Shown in pieces: positions 1,470 through 33,669 of a DNA stretch of 51,649 bases. The DNA lies in NCBI GenBank assembly GCA_944385885.1, contig CALWYY010000045.1, forward strand, positions 1-51,649, read 5' to 3'. The notes beneath the pieces were generated by a model, which saw nothing but the letters and a program-made list of their open reading frames with translations, was not told the origin of the DNA and did not search any database. Position 1 is the stretch's first letter. Each line of letters starts with the position of its first letter. The stretch comes from an uncultured Oscillospiraceae bacterium. GTDB lineage: Bacteria; Bacillota; Clostridia; Oscillospirales; Oscillospiraceae. The position numbers and the translations under genes are program-made.

Positions 1470-1580
1470 ATAGAGCCTGTCTCACCGCCCCAGGCGGACA
1501 TGGAATGTGGTGCAAAGCCACGCGAGTCGGTCACTGTGAAGCCCGTGCCGGGATAAGTCAGATACATGGAGACAGGCGGA
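1470..1580 (+). promoter_or_regulatory. Cobalamin riboswitch aptamer
   Basis: The core has the cobalamin aptamer signature: the GGTGCAAAGCCAC segment, the GGTCACTGTGAA segment, and a B12-box-like AAGTCAGATAC near 1555-1565. A closing helix pairs 1475-1483 perfectly with 1569-1577. It is followed by a strong 11-bp hairpin with a T-rich loop (1633-1661) and an 8-bp hairpin (1664-1671 with 1680-1687) before the GGAGGA ribosome binding site at 1727. Aptamers of this class bind adenosyl- or methylcobalamin and repress uptake/biosynthesis genes. Neither downstream hairpin has a canonical U-run, so the mode of control is uncertain. Confidence 0.9.
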
Positions 1581-1741: not shown

Positions 1742-2545
1742 ATGAAAGCGATGAAAAGGATGCTTACGTGGAGCCTGGCTCTGTGCCTGATTCTGGGGCT
1801 TCTGGCCGGCTGCGGCCAGACCGGGACGGAGACGCCGGAGGCCACGGAGACCCCGGAACCGGTGCAGGAGGAGGCGGAGGAACCCGCTGGAGCCGCTGAG
1901 GCAGAGACGGAAGAGCCGGTCCAGGAGGAGCAGACGCTGACGGTGTATGTTACCATCTCCGATGCCGGGGTGCTGAAAGTTGCCCAGGAGCCTGTGGCGG
2001 TCACCGACGGCGACGGCGACGGCGCGCTGACCGTCCATGACGCGCTTCTGGCGGCCCACGATGCCCTGTACCAGGGCGGAGCCGAGGCCGGCTTCGCCAC
2101 CGACACCGGGGATTACGGGCTGTATATCACCAAGCTCTGGGGCACGGAAAACGGCGGGAGCTATGGCTATTGCCTTAACAATGCCGCCTGCATGAGCCTG
2201 ACGGATCCGGTGGCCCAGGGGGATTATCTGACGGCCTATTCCTACGCCGACCTTACCGCCTGGAGCGATATGTACGCCTATTTTGATGTGAATACGGCCC
2301 AGGCCGCCGCCGGGGAGGAGATCACCCTGGTTCTTTCCGCCAGCGGTTATGACGAGAGCTGGAACCCGGTGGCCCTTCCTGTGGAAGGGGCGGCAGTCAC
2401 CGCAAACGGGGAGGACACCGGCTGCGTCACCGATGGGACTGGGAGCGTGACCCTGACCTTTGCCGAGGCGGGGGTGTATGTGATAAGCGCCGGATCGGAG
2501 ACCGCCGTGCTGGTTCCGCCGGTGTGTGTGGTGACGGTAGGCTGA
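1742..2545 (+). CDS. DUF4430-like lipoprotein, first gene of the cobalamin operon
   Basis: The start at 1742 was chosen because a GGAGGA site lies 9 nt upstream and a signal peptide with lipobox LAGC (Cys24) begins there; a longer reading would run into the riboswitch. The 267-aa protein is exported and lipid-anchored. After the Cys comes a Thr/Glu/Pro-rich linker (about residues 27-63). A beta-rich domain follows (about 64-182) with a LTVHDALLAA segment, a Gly/Asn/Tyr stretch and a GDYLTAYSYAD strand, resembling DUF4430/transcobalamin beta domains. The C-terminal part (about 190-260) looks Ig-like. Position directly after a cobalamin riboswitch and before an ECF transporter suggests a corrinoid-binding or docking role; this is inference. 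Confidence 0.8.
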   Translation: MKAMKRMLTWSLALCLILGLLAGCGQTGTETPEATETPEPVQEEAEEPAGAAEAETEEPVQEEQTLTVYVTISDAGVLKVAQEPVAVTDGDGDGALTVHDALLAAHDALYQGGAEAGFATDTGDYGLYITKLWGTENGGSYGYCLNNAACMSLTDPVAQGDYLTAYSYADLTAWSDMYAYFDVNTAQAAAGEEITLVLSASGYDESWNPVALPVEGAAVTANGEDTGCVTDGTGSVTLTFAEAGVYVISAGSETAVLVPPVCVVTVG

Positions 2546-2591: not shown

Positions 2592-3917
2592 ATGAAAAAA
2601 CGAACAGGGGCTCTGCTGCTGGCCCTGGTGCTGCTTCTGGGCTGCGCAGGCTGCGCGGCCGACGGAGGCGACCCGGTGCTTCGCGCCGCCGGAGACGCGG
2701 CGGAGTACCTGCTGGCGCTGCAGGAGCCGGCGCACGGCGGGGAATGGCTGGCGGTCTGCCTGGGCTCAGGGGTTTTGGACCCTCCCTCCGGCTGGTTAGA
2801 GGACTATTTGGAAAGCATGGCTGAGTACGCCGCCGGCTGCGACGGGGTACTCAGCCAGCGGCAGAGCACGGAGTACTCTCTGGCGGTGCTGGCAGTTACC
2901 GCCGCAGGCGGGGATGCCAGGGACGTAGGAGGCTGGGATCTGACACTGCCGCTGCAGGACTATGAACTTGTGACAACCCAGGGGATGAATGGTCCAGCCT
3001 ATGCCCTGATAGCTCTGGACAGCGGTGGGTACCCGGCCGATATACGGGAACAGTATATACAGTACCTTCTCTCCCGCCGCCTGGCCGATGGAGGTTTTGC
3101 CTTCCGTGGAGATACCGCCGACACGGATATGACGGCGATTGTGCTCCAGGCCCTGGCGCCTTATCAGGAGCAGGAAGAGGTGGCGCAGGCGGTGGAGGAG
3201 GCGCTGGCACGGCTGGCGTCTCTGCAGGGTGAGGACGGGAACTGGCAGAGCTGGGGGGTCGTGAACGCCGAGAGCTGTGCCCAAGTAATCCTGGCCCTGT
3301 GCGCTCTGGACGTTTCCCTGGACGACCCTCGATTTACGAAAAATGGCGCGGGGCCGCTGGATGTCCTTTTAACGTACCAGCTGGAGGACGGAAGCTTCTC
3401 TCACCTGCCGGGAGGGGAGAGCGACGTCACCGCCACGCGGCAGGCGCTGGAAGCTTTGACGGCGGCTGCCTTGGCCTCCGAGGGACAGACCGGCGGCCTG
3501 TTTCGTCTCCTGAGCAATGTGTGTACCCTGGAGATCCGCTGCGACGTCCTTACGTCCCGGAAGGGGACCTTTCCGGAGAATATGCAGCAGCTTATTCCCG
3601 ACGACGGGGTGATCCTGCCCCAGACACGGGTGGCCATCACCCAGGGGGAGACGGTTTTTGACATATTGCAGCGCACTCTCCGGGAGGAGGGGATCCACTT
3701 TGAGTTCAGTGAATCCGCTGTGGGCGGCGGCTATGTGCAGGGGATTGCCAACTTGTATGAGTACGACGGCGGGGAGCTTTCCGGCTGGCAGTATTCTGTT
3801 AACGGAATATTTCCCAGTCTTGGCTGTGCCGGTTATACGGTGTCTCCGGGGGATGCGATCCTCTGGCAGTATACCTGCGACCTGGGGGCGGATATAGGAA
3901 ACGTTTACGATGAATGA
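2592..3917 (+). CDS. Lipoprotein with alpha/alpha toroid plus DUF4430 domain (transcobalamin/intrinsic factor-like layout)
   Basis: The 441-aa protein has a signal peptide with lipobox LLGC (Cys18). Residues about 28-300 form an all-helical repeat region with DGGFAF (166-171), DGNW (215-218) and DGSFS (266-270), typical of terpene cyclase/prenyltransferase-type alpha6/alpha6 barrels. Residues about 311-433 match DUF4430: a GETVFDILQ segment, then GWQYSVNG and GDAILWQYTCDLG. Barrel plus beta-domain is the architecture of animal intrinsic factor and transcobalamin, which clasp cobalamin between the two domains. It lies 46 nt after the first lipoprotein and overlaps the ECF T gene by 8 nt, inside a riboswitch-controlled operon. 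Extracytoplasmic corrinoid capture is the likely role (inference). Confidence 0.82.
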   Translation: MKKRTGALLLALVLLLGCAGCAADGGDPVLRAAGDAAEYLLALQEPAHGGEWLAVCLGSGVLDPPSGWLEDYLESMAEYAAGCDGVLSQRQSTEYSLAVLAVTAAGGDARDVGGWDLTLPLQDYELVTTQGMNGPAYALIALDSGGYPADIREQYIQYLLSRRLADGGFAFRGDTADTDMTAIVLQALAPYQEQEEVAQAVEEALARLASLQGEDGNWQSWGVVNAESCAQVILALCALDVSLDDPRFTKNGAGPLDVLLTYQLEDGSFSHLPGGESDVTATRQALEALTAAALASEGQTGGLFRLLSNVCTLEIRCDVLTSRKGTFPENMQQLIPDDGVILPQTRVAITQGETVFDILQRTLREEGIHFEFSESAVGGGYVQGIANLYEYDGGELSGWQYSVNGIFPSLGCAGYTVSPGDAILWQYTCDLGADIGNVYDE

Positions 3918-4797
3918 CGCTTTTGCAGGGTACCATCCCCTGGTAAACTTTGTCTGGTTTGCGGCGGTGCTGACGTACACCATGCTGTTTATGCATCCGG
4001 TGATGCTGGCCGTGGCGCTGGTGTGCGCCGTGGGGTACAGCCTGTACCTGACGGGACGGCGGGCAGCCCGGGTGCAGGCAGCGGCTATTCTGCCGCTGAT
4101 GCTGCTGACGGCGGTGCTCAACCCTCTGTTTAACCATCGGGGACTTACCATTCTTTGCTGGCTTCCCGGGGGAAACCCTCTCACCTTAGAGGCCATTGCA
4201 TACGGTATAGCGGCCGCCGGGATGCTGGCAGCGGCTATTTCGTGGTTCTATTGCCTAAACCGAGTGTTTACCACGGACAAATTCGTCTGGCTGTTTGGCC
4301 GGATCATCCCGTTTCTGTCCCTTTTGGTTTCCATGACCCTTCGCTTTGTGCCCCAGTTTACCGCCAGAGCCCGGGCGGTGGCGGAGTGCCAGCGGGATCT
4401 GCGGGGCCGGGAGGAGACGAAGCTCCTCCGGCGGGCCGGGAACGGGCTGCGGGTGCTCTCCATTGTGGTCACCTGGGCGCTGGAGAACGCCATCCATACC
4501 GCCGACAGCATGAAAAGCCGGGGATACGGCTTGCCAGGCCGGACATCTTTTTCCCTGTACAGGTTTACTCGCCGAGAGAGGACAGCCCTGGTGACGACGC
4601 TGGTGCTGACTCTGGCAGTGGGAGCAGGCGCCGCGCTGGGCGGCATACGCTGGGAGTATTATCCCGGCCTGGCTGGGGAACTGGGAGCGCCGCTGACGCT
4701 GGCGGTGTTTGCCGCCTGGCTAGGACTGTGCGCCCTGCCGCTGACCTTGAATCTTTGGGAGGCCTGTCAATGGAAAGCTTTGCGGTCCGGCGTCTGA
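3910..4797 (+). CDS. ECF transporter T component (corrinoid uptake)
   Basis: The 295-aa polytopic membrane protein has four to six hydrophobic segments and, in its cytoplasmic coupling region, the motif ADSMKSRGYG, the Ala-Arg-Gly type signature with which ECF T proteins contact the ATPases. The N-terminal part is hydrophobic (about residues 10-110), followed by a basic helical region (about 150-210) and two further membrane spans. Its ATG overlaps the stop of the upstream lipoprotein, and its 3' end overlaps the ATPase gene by 28 nt, so the components are translationally coupled. Context (cobalamin riboswitch, cob genes) indicates a corrinoid transporter. Confidence 0.88.
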   Translation: MNDAFAGYHPLVNFVWFAAVLTYTMLFMHPVMLAVALVCAVGYSLYLTGRRAARVQAAAILPLMLLTAVLNPLFNHRGLTILCWLPGGNPLTLEAIAYGIAAAGMLAAAISWFYCLNRVFTTDKFVWLFGRIIPFLSLLVSMTLRFVPQFTARARAVAECQRDLRGREETKLLRRAGNGLRVLSIVVTWALENAIHTADSMKSRGYGLPGRTSFSLYRFTRRERTALVTTLVLTLAVGAGAALGGIRWEYYPGLAGELGAPLTLAVFAAWLGLCALPLTLNLWEACQWKALRSGV

Positions 4798-7415
4798 CAT
4801 TTTCCTACCCCGGCCAAAGGCAGCCAGCTTTGCGCCAGGTGTCGCTGTGTGTCCAGGCGGGGGAATTCGTGGTTCTGGCAGGGCCATCCGGCGGCGGAAA
4901 GACCACTCTTCTGCGGCAGCTCAAGACCTGCCTGGCGCCCCATGGGGGGCGGTGGGGGGAGATCCTGTTTGAGGGAAAGCCTCTGGAACAGGTGGACGAG
5001 CGCACTCAGGCGGCCCGGATCGGCTTTGTGCAGCAGTCGCCGGACGCGCAGCTGGTGACCGATAAGGTCTGGCACGAGCTGGCTTTTGGGCTGGAGTGCC
5101 TGGGATTTGATACTCCGGCCATCCGCAGCCGTGTGGCGGAAATGGCCAGCTTTTTCGGGATTCAGAACTGGTTTTACCGGGATGTGTCGGCGCTGTCCGG
5201 AGGGCAAAAGCAGCTTTTAAACCTGGCGGCGGTGATGGTGCTGCAGCCGTCGGTTTTGATATTGGACGAGCCGACCAGCCAGCTGGACCCGATCGCGGCC
5301 TCGGACTTTTTGGCGGTGCTGGGAAAGATCAACCGGGAGCTGGGCACCACGGTGCTGCTTACAGAGCATCGGCTGGAGGAAGCCCTTCCCATGGCTGACC
5401 GGCTGATCGTTTTGGATGGGGGAGAGGTTCTGTGCGACGCATCTCCCCGGGAGGCGGGAGAACGGCTGCGGAGCCTGGGTCATAGTTTGTTTGAGGCCCT
5501 ACCTACGCCCATGCGTATCTGGGCCGCCGTGGAAAACCGGGAGACCTGCCCGGTGACCGTGCGGGAAGGAAGAGCTTGGCTGGACGCCATGGCCCTCCGC
5601 CGGCCGCTGCTCCCCGTGCCGGAAGAACGCACCGCGGTTTCTCTGTCGCCCGTTCCCGCGCTGGAGATGGACGAGGCGTGGTTCCGCTATGACCGGGCGG
5701 GAGAGGACGTGATCCGGGGAGCCTCCTTAAAGGCCTATCCGGGCGAACTGCTGTGTGTTCTGGGGGGGAACGGGACTGGGAAAACCACGGCTCTGTCTCT
5801 TCTCAGCGGACGGCGAAAGCCCCTACGCGGCCGCGTGGTGGCCCATGGACGGATGGCCGTACTGCCTCAGGATCCCCAGACCCTTTTTCTCCGGCAGACG
5901 GTGCGTCAGGAACTGTGGGAGGCCCTCTTGGACCGGGGAGAATTGAGCCGGGAGGAGAAAGAGGAAAGGGTGGGCCGGGCAGCGGCTCTGTGCGGGCTTG
6001 AACCGCTTCTGGAACGGCATCCTTATGACTTGTCCGGCGGTGAGCAGCAGAGGACGGCCTTGGCGGCGGTTCTGCTTCGGGAACCGGAAATTCTGTTATT
6101 GGATGAGCCAACCAAAGGCCTGGACGCCGCATTCAAAGCAACTTTTGCGGGGATCCTGCACCGGCTGACGCAGCAGGGCGTATGCGTGGTGATGGTAAGC
6201 CACGACGTGGAGTTTTGCGCCCGGTACGCCCACCGCTGTGCCCTGTTTTTTGACGGCGCGGTGGTTACAGAGAATACACCCCGGGCGTTTTTTGCCGGCA
6301 ACAGCTTTTACACCACCGCCGCCAACCGTATGGCCCGGCACCTGCGTCCGGAGGCGGTTACGCCCGAGGACGTGATCGCCGTGTGCGGAGGCAGGGTGCC
6401 GGAGGCTCCGCCTTTGCCTCCGCTGGAGTGGAAGGCCGTCCCAATTCCCGCCGCGCCGCCGGAAACAAAAGGCCCCCGTTGGAGAAGGTGCCTTGCCTGG
6501 GCATCCGGCCTGACGGCTCTGGGAGCGCTGGTATGGATTCTGTTTCGGGTAAACCTGACGGAAATTCTCACCACGGGAAGCCTTCATGCGGCCGGTGGCG
6601 GGTACAAAGCGGCGTACTCCATCTTGCTGTGCGCGCTGGTGGTCTTTGCCCTGTGCGTGAGCTGCCGGACGTCCCGGCAGAGGACGATCCCTCGGGCTAC
6701 CGGCCGACTTCCCAGGCGTAGCCGATGGGCTTTGGCTATGATCCTGCTGGCAATACCCCTGACCATTTATGTGGGGATCCGGTTTTTTGGCGATAGGCGG
6801 TACTACATAGTCTCCCTGCTGGTGATTGCAGAGACCCTGGCGCCTTTTGCCATGATTTTTGAGGAACGGAAACCCCGGGCCAGGGAGTTGGTAATTCTGG
6901 CGGTGCTGTGCGCTCTGGGCGTGGCGGGCCGGGCGGCGTTCGTGGCGCTGCCGGGCTTTAAGCCGGTGATGGCAATGGTGATCCTGGCAGGGGTATCCAT
7001 GGGCGCAGAGGCCGGTTTTCTCACCGGCGCGGTAACCATGTTCGTAAGCAACATGCTCTTCGGCCAGGGACCCTGGACACCCTGGCAGATGTTTTCCATG
7101 GGCATTATTGGCTTCTTGGCGGGTGTTCTGTTCCGGTGGGGGCTCCTGCGCCGGGACCGGTTGTCTCTGGCGGTGTTTGGGCTGCTGTGTGCGATTGTAC
7201 TATACGGCGGGCTGATGAACCCGGCTTCGGTATTGATGTATCAGTCCGACCCCACCTGGGAGATGTTTTTGACGGCCTATGTCACTGGGTTCCCGGTGGA
7301 TGTAGTCCATGGGCTGTCCACGGCGCTGTTCCTATGGGTTTTGGCACGACCGTTGCTGGAAAAACTGGACCGGGTTAAGGAAAAGTACGGCCTGATGGAG
7401 GATTGGGAGAGATGA
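4770..7415 (+). CDS. ECF transporter triple fusion: two ATPase domains plus S component (corrinoid)
   Basis: The ATG at 4770 has GGGAGG 7 nt upstream; a longer in-frame reading would overlap the T gene completely. The 881-aa protein holds ATPase 1 (Walker A GPSGGGKT 38-45, signature LSGGQKQ 142-148, Walker B 163-168), ATPase 2 (Walker A 332-340, LSGGEQQ 421-427, Walker B 442-447), a linker with one or two hydrophobic segments (about 575-635) and a C-terminal polytopic S domain (about 652-865). ATP hydrolysis drives substrate release from the S domain. All modules except T are on one chain. Cobalamin context points to a CbrT-type corrinoid S domain; substrate is inferred. It overlaps the next gene by ATGA. 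Confidence 0.88.
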   Translation: MESFAVRRLTFSYPGQRQPALRQVSLCVQAGEFVVLAGPSGGGKTTLLRQLKTCLAPHGGRWGEILFEGKPLEQVDERTQAARIGFVQQSPDAQLVTDKVWHELAFGLECLGFDTPAIRSRVAEMASFFGIQNWFYRDVSALSGGQKQLLNLAAVMVLQPSVLILDEPTSQLDPIAASDFLAVLGKINRELGTTVLLTEHRLEEALPMADRLIVLDGGEVLCDASPREAGERLRSLGHSLFEALPTPMRIWAAVENRETCPVTVREGRAWLDAMALRRPLLPVPEERTAVSLSPVPALEMDEAWFRYDRAGEDVIRGASLKAYPGELLCVLGGNGTGKTTALSLLSGRRKPLRGRVVAHGRMAVLPQDPQTLFLRQTVRQELWEALLDRGELSREEKEERVGRAAALCGLEPLLERHPYDLSGGEQQRTALAAVLLREPEILLLDEPTKGLDAAFKATFAGILHRLTQQGVCVVMVSHDVEFCARYAHRCALFFDGAVVTENTPRAFFAGNSFYTTAANRMARHLRPEAVTPEDVIAVCGGRVPEAPPLPPLEWKAVPIPAAPPETKGPRWRRCLAWASGLTALGALVWILFRVNLTEILTTGSLHAAGGGYKAAYSILLCALVVFALCVSCRTSRQRTIPRATGRLPRRSRWALAMILLAIPLTIYVGIRFFGDRRYYIVSLLVIAETLAPFAMIFEERKPRARELVILAVLCALGVAGRAAFVALPGFKPVMAMVILAGVSMGAEAGFLTGAVTMFVSNMLFGQGPWTPWQMFSMGIIGFLAGVLFRWGLLRRDRLSLAVFGLLCAIVLYGGLMNPASVLMYQSDPTWEMFLTAYVTGFPVDVVHGLSTALFLWVLARPLLEKLDRVKEKYGLMEDWER

Positions 7416-8176
7416 GCTTCCGGCAGCGGCTGTATCTGTCAACCATCGGAGAGGATGCGCCGGCTCTGACCCGCCGGCTGGGGCTGGGTCTGGAGGTGGC
7501 GGAATACTGCACTGCCTGGCGTATGGACCGGGAGTTTCCGGCCACCCACCGGCAAGTGTGCCAGAGCATGGAGGGCGTGGAACGGTTTGTATTCCATGCC
7601 CCTTTTAACGAGCTGTGCCCCGCTGCGGTGGACCCCCTAGCGGTGGAGCTGGCGGAAAAGCGATGGTGGCAGGCTGTGAAGCTGGCCGGGCGCTACGGCA
7701 TCCGGCGAATGGTAGTCCACAGCGGATATGTGCCCTGGATCTACCATAAGGAGTGGTTTGAAGACCGGTCCGTGGAGTTTTGGCGCCGCTTTATGCGGGA
7801 TTTTCCCCAGGATGGATTTCTCTATCTGGAAAACGTTATGGAGGACGGACCGGAGCTTTTGTGCCGGATCGTCCAGCGGGTAGACGACCCCCGGTTTCGC
7901 CTGTGCCTGGATTTAGGGCACGCCCATGCGGAACTGTCCCGGGCGCCGCTTATGGCGTGGGTGGAGGCCTGCGCCCCTCTGCTGGGCCATGTACACCTGC
8001 ACGACAACCGGGGAGGGGAGGACTTGCATCTGCCCCTTGGGGAGGGCACGGCCCCTGTGGAGGAGGCTTTGATCCGGCTGGAGACTCTGTGCCCCGGCTT
8101 GACTTACACCGTGGAGAACATGCGGGCCGCCCCTTCTGTTGCCTGGCTGGAGCGGCACGGTTTTTGGGAGGGCTGA
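7412..8176 (+). CDS. Xylose isomerase-like TIM-barrel protein in the cobalamin operon
   Basis: ATG 7412 was chosen because GGAGGA (7397-7402) lies 9 nt upstream and it overlaps the previous stop; the TTG at 7403 has no spacing. The 254-aa product has the layout of the sugar phosphate isomerase/epimerase (AP endonuclease 2) superfamily: MVVHSGY, YLENVMED, CLDLGHAHAEL and GHVHLHDNRG, with His, Glu and Asp residues able to bind a divalent metal. The family includes isomerases, epimerases and nucleases, so the reaction is not predictable. It lies 3 nt before cobT, which raises a link with lower-ligand or alpha-ribazole metabolism; this is only inference. Confidence 0.75.
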   Translation: MSFRQRLYLSTIGEDAPALTRRLGLGLEVAEYCTAWRMDREFPATHRQVCQSMEGVERFVFHAPFNELCPAAVDPLAVELAEKRWWQAVKLAGRYGIRRMVVHSGYVPWIYHKEWFEDRSVEFWRRFMRDFPQDGFLYLENVMEDGPELLCRIVQRVDDPRFRLCLDLGHAHAELSRAPLMAWVEACAPLLGHVHLHDNRGGEDLHLPLGEGTAPVEEALIRLETLCPGLTYTVENMRAAPSVAWLERHGFWEG

Positions 8177-8179
8177 GGA

Positions 8180-9268
8180 ATGGACGAGCTGAGAGCGCTT
8201 TTGGAGACAATCCGGCCTCTGGACGCCGGCGCCATGGAAGCCGCCCGGGCCTGGCAGGCGCGCCTTGCTAAGCCGCCGGGGAGCCTGGGGAAACTGGAAG
8301 ATATTGCCGTGCGTCTGGCGGGGATTACCGGACGGGTGCACAACACTCTCCGGGACAAGCGCATTTTGGTTTTCTGCGGGGACAACGGGGTAGTGGAAGA
8401 AGGTATCGGTTCGGCCCCTCGCACCGTTACCGCCGCCCAGGCGGTGAATATGACCCGCTATTGTACCGGCATGTCCGCCATGGCCCGGTATTTTGGGGAC
8501 CGGGTAGTGGTGGTGGATGTGGGGATTGCCGATCCTTACGACTGTCCGGAGATCCTCTGCCGGAAGATCGCCTCCGGCACCCGGAATCTGTGCCGGGAGC
8601 CGGCCATGACCCGGCAGGAGACGATGCAGGCTATCCGAACCGGGTGGGAGACGGCGGTGGAGAATGCCCAGGATGGCGCGGATGTGCTGGGAATCGGAGA
8701 GATGGGCATAGGAAACACCACCACCTCCGCGGCGGTGCTGTCGGCTTTGACGGGCCTTGACCCGGCGGAAGTGACCGGACGGGGCGGCGGGATTACCGAC
8801 GAGAGCTTTGCCCGAAAAAAGGAAGTTGTGGCCCGTGCCTTGGCATTGCACCGGCCACGGCGGGAAGATCCGGTGGACGTTCTTTCCAAAGTGGGCGGCC
8901 TGGACCTGGCGGCCATGTGCGGGGCCTTTCTGGGCGCGGCTGCCGAACGGCGCCCGGTAGTGGCGGACGGCTTTATTTCGGTGGTAGCCGCCCTGTGCGC
9001 CGCCCGCCTGTGTCCGGCTGTGGGGGAGTATGTGTTTGGTTCCCATGCCTCGTTTGAGCGGGGCTACGCGGCCGCCGCAGCCGAGCTGAAGCTGGAGCCC
9101 TGGCTGCGGCTGGATATGCGGCTGGGAGAGGGGAGCGGCTGCCCCCTGGCCTTTGAGGTGATGGACGCCGCCTGCGCCGCAGCCAATGGTATGGCCACTT
9201 TTGAAGGGGCTGCCATTGACGACGGGTACCTGGACGCCATCCGGGGAAAGGATTGCTTTACCGTATGA
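8180..9268 (+). CDS. cobT: Nicotinate-nucleotide--dimethylbenzimidazole phosphoribosyltransferase
   Basis: The 362-aa protein matches CobT over its full length: LAKPPGSLGKLE near the N-terminus, CGDNGVVEEGI, a GIGEMGIGNTT segment, and C-terminal RLGEGSGC carrying the catalytic Glu. CobT transfers phosphoribose from nicotinate mononucleotide to the lower-ligand base, giving the alpha-ribazole phosphate of the cobamide nucleotide loop. It is followed by cobU with an ATGA overlap. The operon has no bluB-like gene in view, so the base may be taken up or made elsewhere. Confidence 0.96.
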   Translation: MDELRALLETIRPLDAGAMEAARAWQARLAKPPGSLGKLEDIAVRLAGITGRVHNTLRDKRILVFCGDNGVVEEGIGSAPRTVTAAQAVNMTRYCTGMSAMARYFGDRVVVVDVGIADPYDCPEILCRKIASGTRNLCREPAMTRQETMQAIRTGWETAVENAQDGADVLGIGEMGIGNTTTSAAVLSALTGLDPAEVTGRGGGITDESFARKKEVVARALALHRPRREDPVDVLSKVGGLDLAAMCGAFLGAAAERRPVVADGFISVVAALCAARLCPAVGEYVFGSHASFERGYAAAAAELKLEPWLRLDMRLGEGSGCPLAFEVMDAACAAANGMATFEGAAIDDGYLDAIRGKDCFTV

Positions 9269-9804
9269 CCATTTTCATATCCGGTGGGTGCAAAAACGGA
9301 AAATCCACTCTGGCGGAGGAAATGGCCCGGCGTCTGGCAGGGTCCGGGAACCTGTACTATGTGGCCACCATGATCCCGCAGGACGGGGAGGACATGGAGC
9401 GGATTCGCCGGCATGTGCGCCAGCGGGCGGGAAAGGGGTTCCAAACGCTGGAGCAGGGAAGACGGCTGGAGGATTGCTTAGACGGTGCGTGCCAGGACGG
9501 GACATTTTTGGTGGACAGTGTTACGGCTCTTCTGGCCAATGAGATGTTCCCGGCCGATGGGCCCTGGGACCTGCAGGCGGGGGAACGGACGGCTCAGGAG
9601 TTATGCCGTTTTGCCGGACGGGTTAAGAACGCCGTGTTTGTGGGCGATTTTCTCTTTTCTGACGCTGGGATATACGACGGCCCCACGGAGGAATACCGCC
9701 GGGCGCTTGCCCTATGCCACCGCCGGCTGGCGGATGTGTGCGATTCGGTGGTGGAGGTATGTGCCGCCTGCTGTATTCTGCACAAGGGAGTGATGCCCGA
9801 ATGA
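9265..9804 (+). CDS. cobU: Adenosylcobinamide kinase / adenosylcobinamide-phosphate guanylyltransferase
   Basis: The ATG at 9265 overlaps the cobT stop (ATGA); an in-frame TTG 12 nt upstream is less likely. The 179-aa protein has the P-loop GGCKNGKST at its N-terminus, the RRHVRQR segment with the His that is guanylylated in the family, and DSVTALLANEM. It phosphorylates adenosylcobinamide and then forms AdoCbi-GDP. This is the intact CobU copy; a shorter degenerate paralogue lies at 10569. It overlaps cobS by four bases. Confidence 0.94.
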   Translation: MTIFISGGCKNGKSTLAEEMARRLAGSGNLYYVATMIPQDGEDMERIRRHVRQRAGKGFQTLEQGRRLEDCLDGACQDGTFLVDSVTALLANEMFPADGPWDLQAGERTAQELCRFAGRVKNAVFVGDFLFSDAGIYDGPTEEYRRALALCHRRLADVCDSVVEVCAACCILHKGVMPE

Positions 9805-10553
9805 GACGGGCGGTGACGGGATTCTTTATGGCCTGGGGGATGTTTTGGATCGTCCCGTGTCCGCTTCGGCGCTGGGACGAACAGGCACGGCCGTTTATGC
9901 TGCTGTTCTTACCGTGGATTGGACTGCTCCTGGGTGGGGCGTGGGGGGTATGCGCTTGGGCCTTTGCCGGGGCGGAGACTCCCTTGATCCGGGCAGCGGT
10001 GCTTACGGCATTGCCGCTTGTTCTGTCTGGATTCATCCATCTGGATGGGTATATGGACTGCGCGGATGCGGTTTTGTCCCGCCGTGACCTGGACACCCGG
10101 CGGAGCATTTTGAAAGACTCCCATGTGGGAGCCTTCGGAGTGATCGCCGTGGGCATACTGCTTTTGCTGGAGTTTGCCCTGCTGTCGGAGACAGATCTGA
10201 CAGGGCGGCGGCTGCTGTGCCTGGTATTTATCCCGGCGGCGGCGCGGGCCAGTGCGGCGGCAGCGGTGCTTACTCTGCATCCCCTGCCTACCAGCAGCTA
10301 TGCCCGGGCAGGAACCAGAGATGTGCCGGGGGCGTTCCGGATGGCGGCTTTTTTGAGCATGGCGCTGTTTGCCGCAGCTGCCGCGGTGGTGTGCGGCTGG
10401 CCGGGGCTGTGCTGCGCTGCCGCCGGCGAGGCGGGGGCCTGGGCGGCTATGGGGTACATCTACCGAGATCTGAAGGGAATGTCCGGGGATGTGTCCGGAG
10501 CCGGGATTACTGTTGGGGAATTGTGCGCACTGGCTGTGCTGGCGGCAGTGTAA
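9801..10553 (+). CDS. cobS: Adenosylcobinamide-GDP ribazoletransferase (cobalamin synthase)
   Basis: The start at 9801 overlaps the cobU stop by ATGA; longer readings would run through cobU. The 250-aa membrane protein has several hydrophobic segments and the conserved HLDGYMDCADAV motif, whose acidic residues bind Mg2+, followed by RRSILKDSHVGAFG. CobS joins AdoCbi-GDP with alpha-ribazole (phosphate) at the cytoplasmic membrane, the last assembly step. Gene order cobT-cobU-cobS fits the nucleotide-loop pathway. Confidence 0.94.
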   Translation: MRRAVTGFFMAWGMFWIVPCPLRRWDEQARPFMLLFLPWIGLLLGGAWGVCAWAFAGAETPLIRAAVLTALPLVLSGFIHLDGYMDCADAVLSRRDLDTRRSILKDSHVGAFGVIAVGILLLLEFALLSETDLTGRRLLCLVFIPAAARASAAAAVLTLHPLPTSSYARAGTRDVPGAFRMAAFLSMALFAAAAAVVCGWPGLCCAAAGEAGAWAAMGYIYRDLKGMSGDVSGAGITVGELCALAVLAAV

Positions 10554-10568
10554 AACGGAGGGCAAAGG

Positions 10569-10928
10569 ATGGATTTTGTGATTGGCGGCGCCTGGCAGGG
10601 GAAGCTTGCCTATGCAAAGGAGACTTTCCAGCTGGCACAGGAGGATATCTTTTACTGCACCAGGCAGGACATGCCGGATTGGTCCCGGCGCTGTGTGGCT
10701 GGGTTGGAGGAATACGTTCTGGGCTGTATACAGCGGGGAGAGGCGTGGCAGCTGCGCCCCCGGGCGGATGCGGTATTGATTTGCCGGGATATTTTCTGCG
10801 GTGTCGTGCCTGTGGAAGCGCCGCTTCGTCTGTGGCGCGAGGAAACGGGACGGATGGCGGCAGAGATTGCCCGTCAGGCGGATACGGTTACGCGGCTGTT
10901 TTGCGGCCTGGCCCAACGCTTGAAATGA
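10569..10928 (+). CDS. Short CobU-like protein with degenerate P-loop
   Basis: The 119-aa protein starts with VIGGAWQGKLAYAKE, which lines up with the CobU P-loop but has Leu where the Ser/Thr of GK(S/T) should be. Its C-terminus (GVVPVEAPLRLW...VTRLFCGLAQRLK) matches the GxGVVP and G-L-P-x-x-L-K ends of CobU/CobP. The central part with the guanylylated His is shortened; length is about two thirds of CobU. It lies between cobS and cobC, 15 nt after cobS. Phosphoryl transfer is doubtful; nucleotide binding, scaffolding or a partial guanylyltransferase role are all possible. Confidence 0.75.
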   Translation: MDFVIGGAWQGKLAYAKETFQLAQEDIFYCTRQDMPDWSRRCVAGLEEYVLGCIQRGEAWQLRPRADAVLICRDIFCGVVPVEAPLRLWREETGRMAAEIARQADTVTRLFCGLAQRLK

Positions 10929-33462: not shown

Positions 33463-33480
33463 GTGCGTTGACAAGAAAAT

Positions 33481-33590
33481 ATATCTTCAGGGCAGGGCGC
33501 AATCCCCGACCGGCGGTATAGTCCGCGAGCCTTCGGGCTGACCCGGTGCAACTCCGGGACCGACAGTATAGTCTGGATGGAAGAAGATAG
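33481..33590 (+). promoter_or_regulatory. FMN riboswitch (RFN element)
   Basis: The RFN consensus is clear: ATCTTCAGGGCAGGG at the 5' end, CCCCGACCGGCGGTATAGTC, a GAGCCTTCGGGCT hairpin, GACCCGGTGCAACTCCGGGAC, and GACAGTATAGTCTGGATGG before the closing GAAGAT. The closing helix pairs 33483-33488 with 33583-33588. An 11-bp imperfect hairpin (33614-33624/33632-33642) follows before the ribU ribosome binding site and may be the expression platform. FMN binding would lower ribU expression. Confidence 0.97.
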
Positions 33591-33669
33591 GTTTTTTGTA
33601 TCTCCATGTCCATGTTGCGCCCGAAGTATATTTTCGGACGCAATCATTGTATATGGAGGTATATGCGCA

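Follow-up and report, generated by a model that had tools for sequence, protein, structure and literature searches.

A lipoprotein with the domain architecture of intrinsic factor and transcobalamin in an ECF transporter operon of an uncultured Oscillospiraceae bacterium

The window analysed here is a stretch of 51,649 nucleotides from an uncultured Oscillospiraceae bacterium (contig CALWYY010000045.1, assembly GCA_944385885.1). The open reading frame (ORF) at 2592..3917 on its forward strand raises the question of whether a Gram-positive bacterium may capture corrinoids at its surface with a protein built like the animal carriers intrinsic factor (IF), transcobalamin (TC) and haptocorrin (HC), and pass them to an ECF transporter. 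A previous sequence-only reading had proposed this, describing an alpha/alpha toroid and a DUF4430 domain on one lipid-anchored chain within a cobalamin-controlled ECF operon.

The core of that idea is a rediscovery, since the prediction was published in 2007. The passages of Burroughs, Balaji, Iyer and Aravind on these proteins describe bacterial toroid+SLBB proteins with signal peptides in hosts that do not synthesise B12, their operons also encoding a CbiO-like ATPase, a CbiQ-like membrane protein and often another SLBB protein; B12 scavenging was predicted, and lateral transfer to animals was proposed as the origin of the animal B12 carriers (PMC1796856). By those passages, proteins of this architecture, their part in B12 scavenging and their place in CbiO/CbiQ operons are already known as predictions (PMC1796856). 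The window protein shares with the 2007 proteins the toroid+SLBB fusion, signal peptide, Gram-positive host, CbiO/CbiQ-like operon and second SLBB protein, and its host probably also lacks corrin synthesis. The same passages do not describe a split toroid/beta pair, a toroid anchored by S-layer homology (SLH) domains, a link to a CbrT-like S-component, a cobalamin riboswitch or CbiR (PMC1796856). The searches made here extend that picture by toroid and beta domain encoded as a pair of split genes, anchoring of the toroid in the S-layer, a near-strict association with a CbrT-like S-component, riboswitches and, at the window locus, genes for remodelling. No experimental test of the 2007 prediction was found among the open-access papers searched.

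Domains and fold of the toroid and beta-grasp lipoprotein

The ORF encodes a protein of 441 aa that begins like a lipoprotein (MKKRTGALLLALVLLLGC in translation), the signal peptide and lipobox (LLGC, Cys18) occupying 2592..2645. An alpha/alpha toroid domain follows at 2664..3491 (aa 25–300), recognised by the Pfam Prenyltrans model over aa 146–297 (27.8 bits, cut-off 26.5), by the AlphaFold2 model and by superposition on the IF toroid. The DUF4430/SLBB beta-grasp domain at 3516..3902 (aa 309–437) is defined by a fold match to the human TC beta domain and by Pfam, where DUF4430 is matched at aa 352–428 with 61.2 bits against a cut-off of 23.8 (E 1.3e-16). This match places the protein in the transcobalamin clade of the SLBB superfamily and is the only one to DUF4430 in the 1.89-Mb draft genome. 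The host is a gut-type Gram-positive bacterium, and the product is a membrane-anchored surface protein.

The AlphaFold2 model, built from 117 family sequences with unpaired alignment rows and without ligand, has a pLDDT of 91.5 and a pTM of 0.82. Foldseek, run against the whole PDB, places TC, HC or IF in all top 15 positions, with matches that cover both domains (E 4e-10 to 2.4e-8). The beta domain matches that of human TC (5no0 and 5np4) with TM scores of 0.76 and 0.73 by target length, and the toroid superposes on the IF toroid with a Z of 19.0 and an rmsd of 3.2 Å across 237 residues. Joint superposition of both model domains on closed TC/IF gives an rmsd of about 22 Å for this apo model with unpaired rows. 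The domains of human TC, when separately expressed, associate only with cobalamin present (PMC5599065); because of this requirement, the unpaired rows and the missing ligand, the value is not counted as a refutation. The suggested superposition on human IF/TC is thus borne out for the fold of both domains and not for their joint placement.

A profile of the animal carriers was assembled from the IF sequence, checked against the PDB, and from TC and HC stretches taken from PDB alignments. Compared by hhalign, the bacterial toroid+beta profile aligns with it co-linearly over the latter half of the toroid and on through the beta domain (94.1% probability, E 1.2e-7). In this alignment D179 of the window protein falls on the D of VDT, N225 on the N/D of GNVYST/GDIYST and Q284 on the Q of the SQLLP/AQILP motifs in the animal sequences. 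All of 44 bacterial toroids have D179 and Q284, and most keep N225. In TC, Asp176, Asn224 and Gln273 are presumably cobalamin contacts. For single domains the comparison is weak (toroid alone 42%, beta alone 39%), and no TC/IF sequence came up when the PDB was searched directly with profiles of the toroid, the beta domain or both combined. The link emerged only from the fold search and from hhalign with both domains together.

AlphaFold2, Foldseek and hhalign all give the order found in TC and IF, a toroid followed by a transcobalamin-type beta-grasp domain on one chain. The claimed architecture is therefore backed by both the fold search and the co-linear profile comparison. Like IF, TC and HC, the window protein is a single secreted chain of similar length with an N-terminal alpha/alpha toroid and a C-terminal beta-grasp domain. 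It differs in being bacterial and lipid-anchored, with an identity of about 14%, and its gene adjoins that of an importer, whereas the animal carriers depend on an endocytic receptor. Its bacterial relatives, unlike the animal carriers, mostly encode toroid and beta domain as two genes.

The operon and its predicted corrinoid functions

The operon runs in the order degenerate AdoCbl riboswitch, lipoprotein 1, toroid and beta-grasp lipoprotein, EcfT, EcfA-EcfA'-S fusion, CbiR-like protein and CobT/U/S, all on the forward strand. The riboswitch aptamer is assigned to 1475..1577, where a partial match to RF01482 (1499–1568; 28.7 bits, E 0.069, below the Rfam gathering level of 50) is enclosed by a perfect 9-bp P1 helix formed by GCCTGTCTC (1475–1483) and GAGACAGGC (1569–1577). 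The core consensus of the AdoCbl riboswitch is present, and this sub-threshold element may work like one. The ECF operon is thus real, and its cobalamin control, as originally described, depends on an element that has the P1 helix and scores under the gathering level. Between it and the first gene lies a hairpin with a T-rich loop (GGCCGGCGGACA/TGTCCGCCGGCC, 1632–1665), possibly part of the expression platform. A second riboswitch in the window, of the FMN type and at gathering level, is found at 33479–33592.

Lipoprotein 1 (1742..2545) has an LLAGC lipobox, a predicted transcobalamin-type beta-grasp domain (about 1931–2248) and an Ig-like domain (about 2258–2542). Its AlphaFold2 model has a pLDDT of 83.2. 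VIA-align has TC, HC or IF beta domains in 13 of its 14 best rows for the beta-grasp domain (Z 10.5–11.8, with unrelated rows at about 8), the remaining one being Ruminococcus gnavus 3u7z, annotated as a putative metal-binding protein. This second beta-grasp domain is not recognised by Pfam; profile comparison with the beta family found nothing, and TC is absent from the best PDB matches of plain Foldseek. Homologues of lipoprotein 1 occur in related loci. By the modelled fold, a transcobalamin-type beta domain is thus carried by two of the operon's surface proteins, which agrees with the remark, in the passages of the 2007 study on these operons, that a second SLBB protein is frequent.

The transporter begins with a divergent EcfT (CbiQ-like) transmembrane protein at 3910..4797. 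No Pfam or NCBIfam model matches it; its sole PDB match is EcfT (5d3m_D, E 2.4e-5), and it carries the invariant motif ADSM-x2-RGYG. At 4782..7415 follows the EcfA-EcfA'-S fusion, in which Pfam recognises two ABC_tran domains and an ECF S-component domain (about 6822–7412). The sole PDB match of the S-component is CbrT (chain 6fnp_A, 3.3e-10), from the ECF-CbrT cobalamin transporter of Lactobacillus delbrueckii; CbrT has an affinity of 9 nM for cobalamin and also transports cobinamide (PMC5997447). The parts of a CbrT-type system are all present (CbrT-homologous S-component, EcfT and two ECF ATPases), which supports prediction of a corrinoid-type ECF system. EcfA, EcfA' and the S-component form one chain of 877 aa, a fusion common to most relatives. 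Tethering of the S-component to the ATPases is hard to reconcile with free S-component exchange.

Downstream lie genes of cobamide remodelling and salvage. The product of 7403..8176 is a TIM barrel protein (PF01261, 1.4e-18) that is named only CbiR-like, as NCBIfam CbiR (NF041277) scores 29.3 bits, under its cut-off of 105. It is followed by CobT, the NaMN:DMB phosphoribosyltransferase (8180..9268; TIGR03160, 406.5 bits, above cut-off), a CobU-like kinase/guanylyltransferase (9253..9804; PF02283, 4.6e-24) and the cobalamin synthase CobS (9714..10553; PF02654, 1.9e-37), whose real start probably lies downstream of the overlap with CobU. At 10569–10928 is a 119-aa protein, the second half of which matches only the C-terminal end of CobU; it adjoins a full CobU and is kept in three relatives (L032, L046 and L054). 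The 89%-complete draft genome yielded no CbiD, but it has a protein with a B12-binding domain. On this gene content, the cell probably uses the corrin ring without making it.

Relatives and co-occurrence with the S-component

A match was present in 25 of 60 related genomes. Scanning a single genome for each species turned up at least 585 encoding places, the best 80 of which were analysed as loci. These 80 begin with lipoprotein 1 or a large SLBB/Ig/SLH protein, followed by toroid, beta, EcfT and EcfA-A'-S. An ECF ATPase lies within 4 kb in 51 of the 61 related loci that have enough downstream sequence; gene order shared to this extent rules out chance. A cobalamin riboswitch is present at gathering level in 12 of the 24 related loci examined. 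Together with the CbrT-like S-component and the adjoining CbiR-like and CobTUS genes of the window, these riboswitches uphold the proposed corrinoid link of the ECF system. No relatives were found on viral contigs. The operons are often opened by very large (1000–2800 aa) SLH/Ig/SLBB wall proteins, for example at 6279–9611 of L033.

Most loci encode toroid and beta as separate, adjacent genes with small gaps or overlaps, and the direct toroid-beta fusion of the window is a minority arrangement. Sporobacter termitidis and a Paenibacillus are among the relatives that have toroid and beta proteins. SLH domains are found on 43 of 52 toroid proteins. The separate beta proteins in the toroid-set loci all have an N-terminal membrane or lipid anchor, as judged by a simple hydrophobicity and lipobox scan. 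Single-chain proteins resembling that of the window also occur in L062 and L063. The former stands apart from the window protein in a quick tree (with weak support), which suggests that the single-chain form was fused more than once. Two further fusions, in L048 and L054, have predicted membrane segments between the domains.

The survey of S-components covered 242 class-mates with a completeness of at least 90%, leaving aside the window's own genome, and at E 1e-20 found the toroid in 66, the beta domain in 70 and the S-component in 81. The S-component is found in 68 of the 70 beta-positive genomes and in 13 of the 172 beta-negative genomes (Fisher p 5e-44, a value that overstates independence because the genomes are related). 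Beta domain and S-component lie within 8 kb in 55 of the 67 genomes checked, and on different contigs in 11 of the other 12. The sequence-only reading had called for a survey of co-occurrence with ECF corrinoid transporters; with a CbrT-like S-component it is near-strict, and the toroid/beta family is not mainly found outside B12 loci.

Proposed role and alternatives

The product of 2592..3917 is likely to be a lipid-anchored corrinoid clamp that feeds the CbrT-type ECF transporter. The domains, fold matches, conserved operon and S-component co-occurrence that enter this reading are computed; from them we infer corrinoid binding, domain closure and hand-over to the S-component. In an order of events borrowed from human TC, the beta-grasp domain would pick up an extracellular corrinoid, the toroid would then close over it, and the complex would be kept at the membrane beside the transporter. 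The CbrT-like S-component would receive the corrinoid from the lipoprotein and import it, and the CbiR-like and CobTUS enzymes would then swap its lower ligand. Lipoprotein 1, with its predicted transcobalamin-type beta domain, would probably aid capture or relay. ECF S-components alone bind substrate at nanomolar affinity and therefore do not strictly depend on a capture protein. For most relatives, a more tentative picture, possible rather than probable, is that an S-layer-anchored toroid and a membrane-anchored beta protein are joined by the corrinoid where the wall faces the membrane and feed the ECF system, the single-chain IF-like form having arisen by repeated gene fusion.

The genes downstream bear on an unlikely alternative, in which the lipoprotein captures a corrinoid precursor, a lower-ligand base or cobinamide instead of complete cobamides, and the operon serves mainly in salvage. 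The CbiR-like, CobT, CobU and CobS genes form a salvage and remodelling set, as such a role would need, and CbrT also transports cobinamide (PMC5997447). However, a CbiR-like gene is nearby in only 3 and CobT in 2 of the best 80 related loci, most of which have the ECF genes, so that the capture module is independent of remodelling. TC-type clamps, moreover, enclose the entire cobalamin, which does not favour a smaller ligand.

A toroid that acts as a terpene cyclase/prenyltransferase-type enzyme or binds isoprenoids, with a beta domain that only anchors or presents it, is highly improbable. Squalene-hopene cyclase is closest to the toroid in sequence and fold, terpene cyclases scoring better (Z 23.4) than IF (Z 19.0), but the class II motif DXDD is missing. 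The window protein has DTDM instead, almost all of 44 family members carry I, V, M or L at position 180, and terpene cyclase identity was rejected on the absence of the motif. The gene product is also secreted and tied to a corrinoid-type S-component. Just as improbable is that the pair serves at the surface as an adhesin or structural module, encoded in the operon but passing no ligand to the transporter. The SLH domains on 43 of 52 relatives' toroids and the large SLBB/Ig/SLH protein that is often the first gene would suit such a module; the near-strict co-occurrence and adjacency with the S-component, and cobalamin riboswitches in half of the loci examined (12/24), speak against it.

As a corrinoid clamp, the lipoprotein would set the window system apart from ECF-CbrT of L. 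delbrueckii, which has the same parts (CbrT-homologous S-component, EcfT and two ATPases) and is described without any surface capture proteins, whereas the window operon is predicted to add them; the window S-component is also fused to EcfA-EcfA' in one chain. BtuG and BtuH of Bacteroides are surface lipoproteins that capture B12 for the importer BtuB at the Gram-negative outer membrane. The predicted role of the window protein is the same, that of a surface lipoprotein capturing B12 for an importer, but the folds differ. If corrinoids are bound, the 2007 prediction of a Gram-positive clamp like IF would be confirmed, the proposal that the animal B12 carriers came from bacteria would gain support, and extracellular capture proteins would be seen to serve some ECF transporters. 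This would also bear on B12 competition in gut communities, the families being present in about 30% of the 242 class-mates sampled.

A small group of these class-mates has the beta domain and no toroid at E 1e-20 (12 genomes, for example G073, G074, G094, G137 and G158). In these the beta protein may act by itself or have a different partner; the S-component is found in 11 of the 12.
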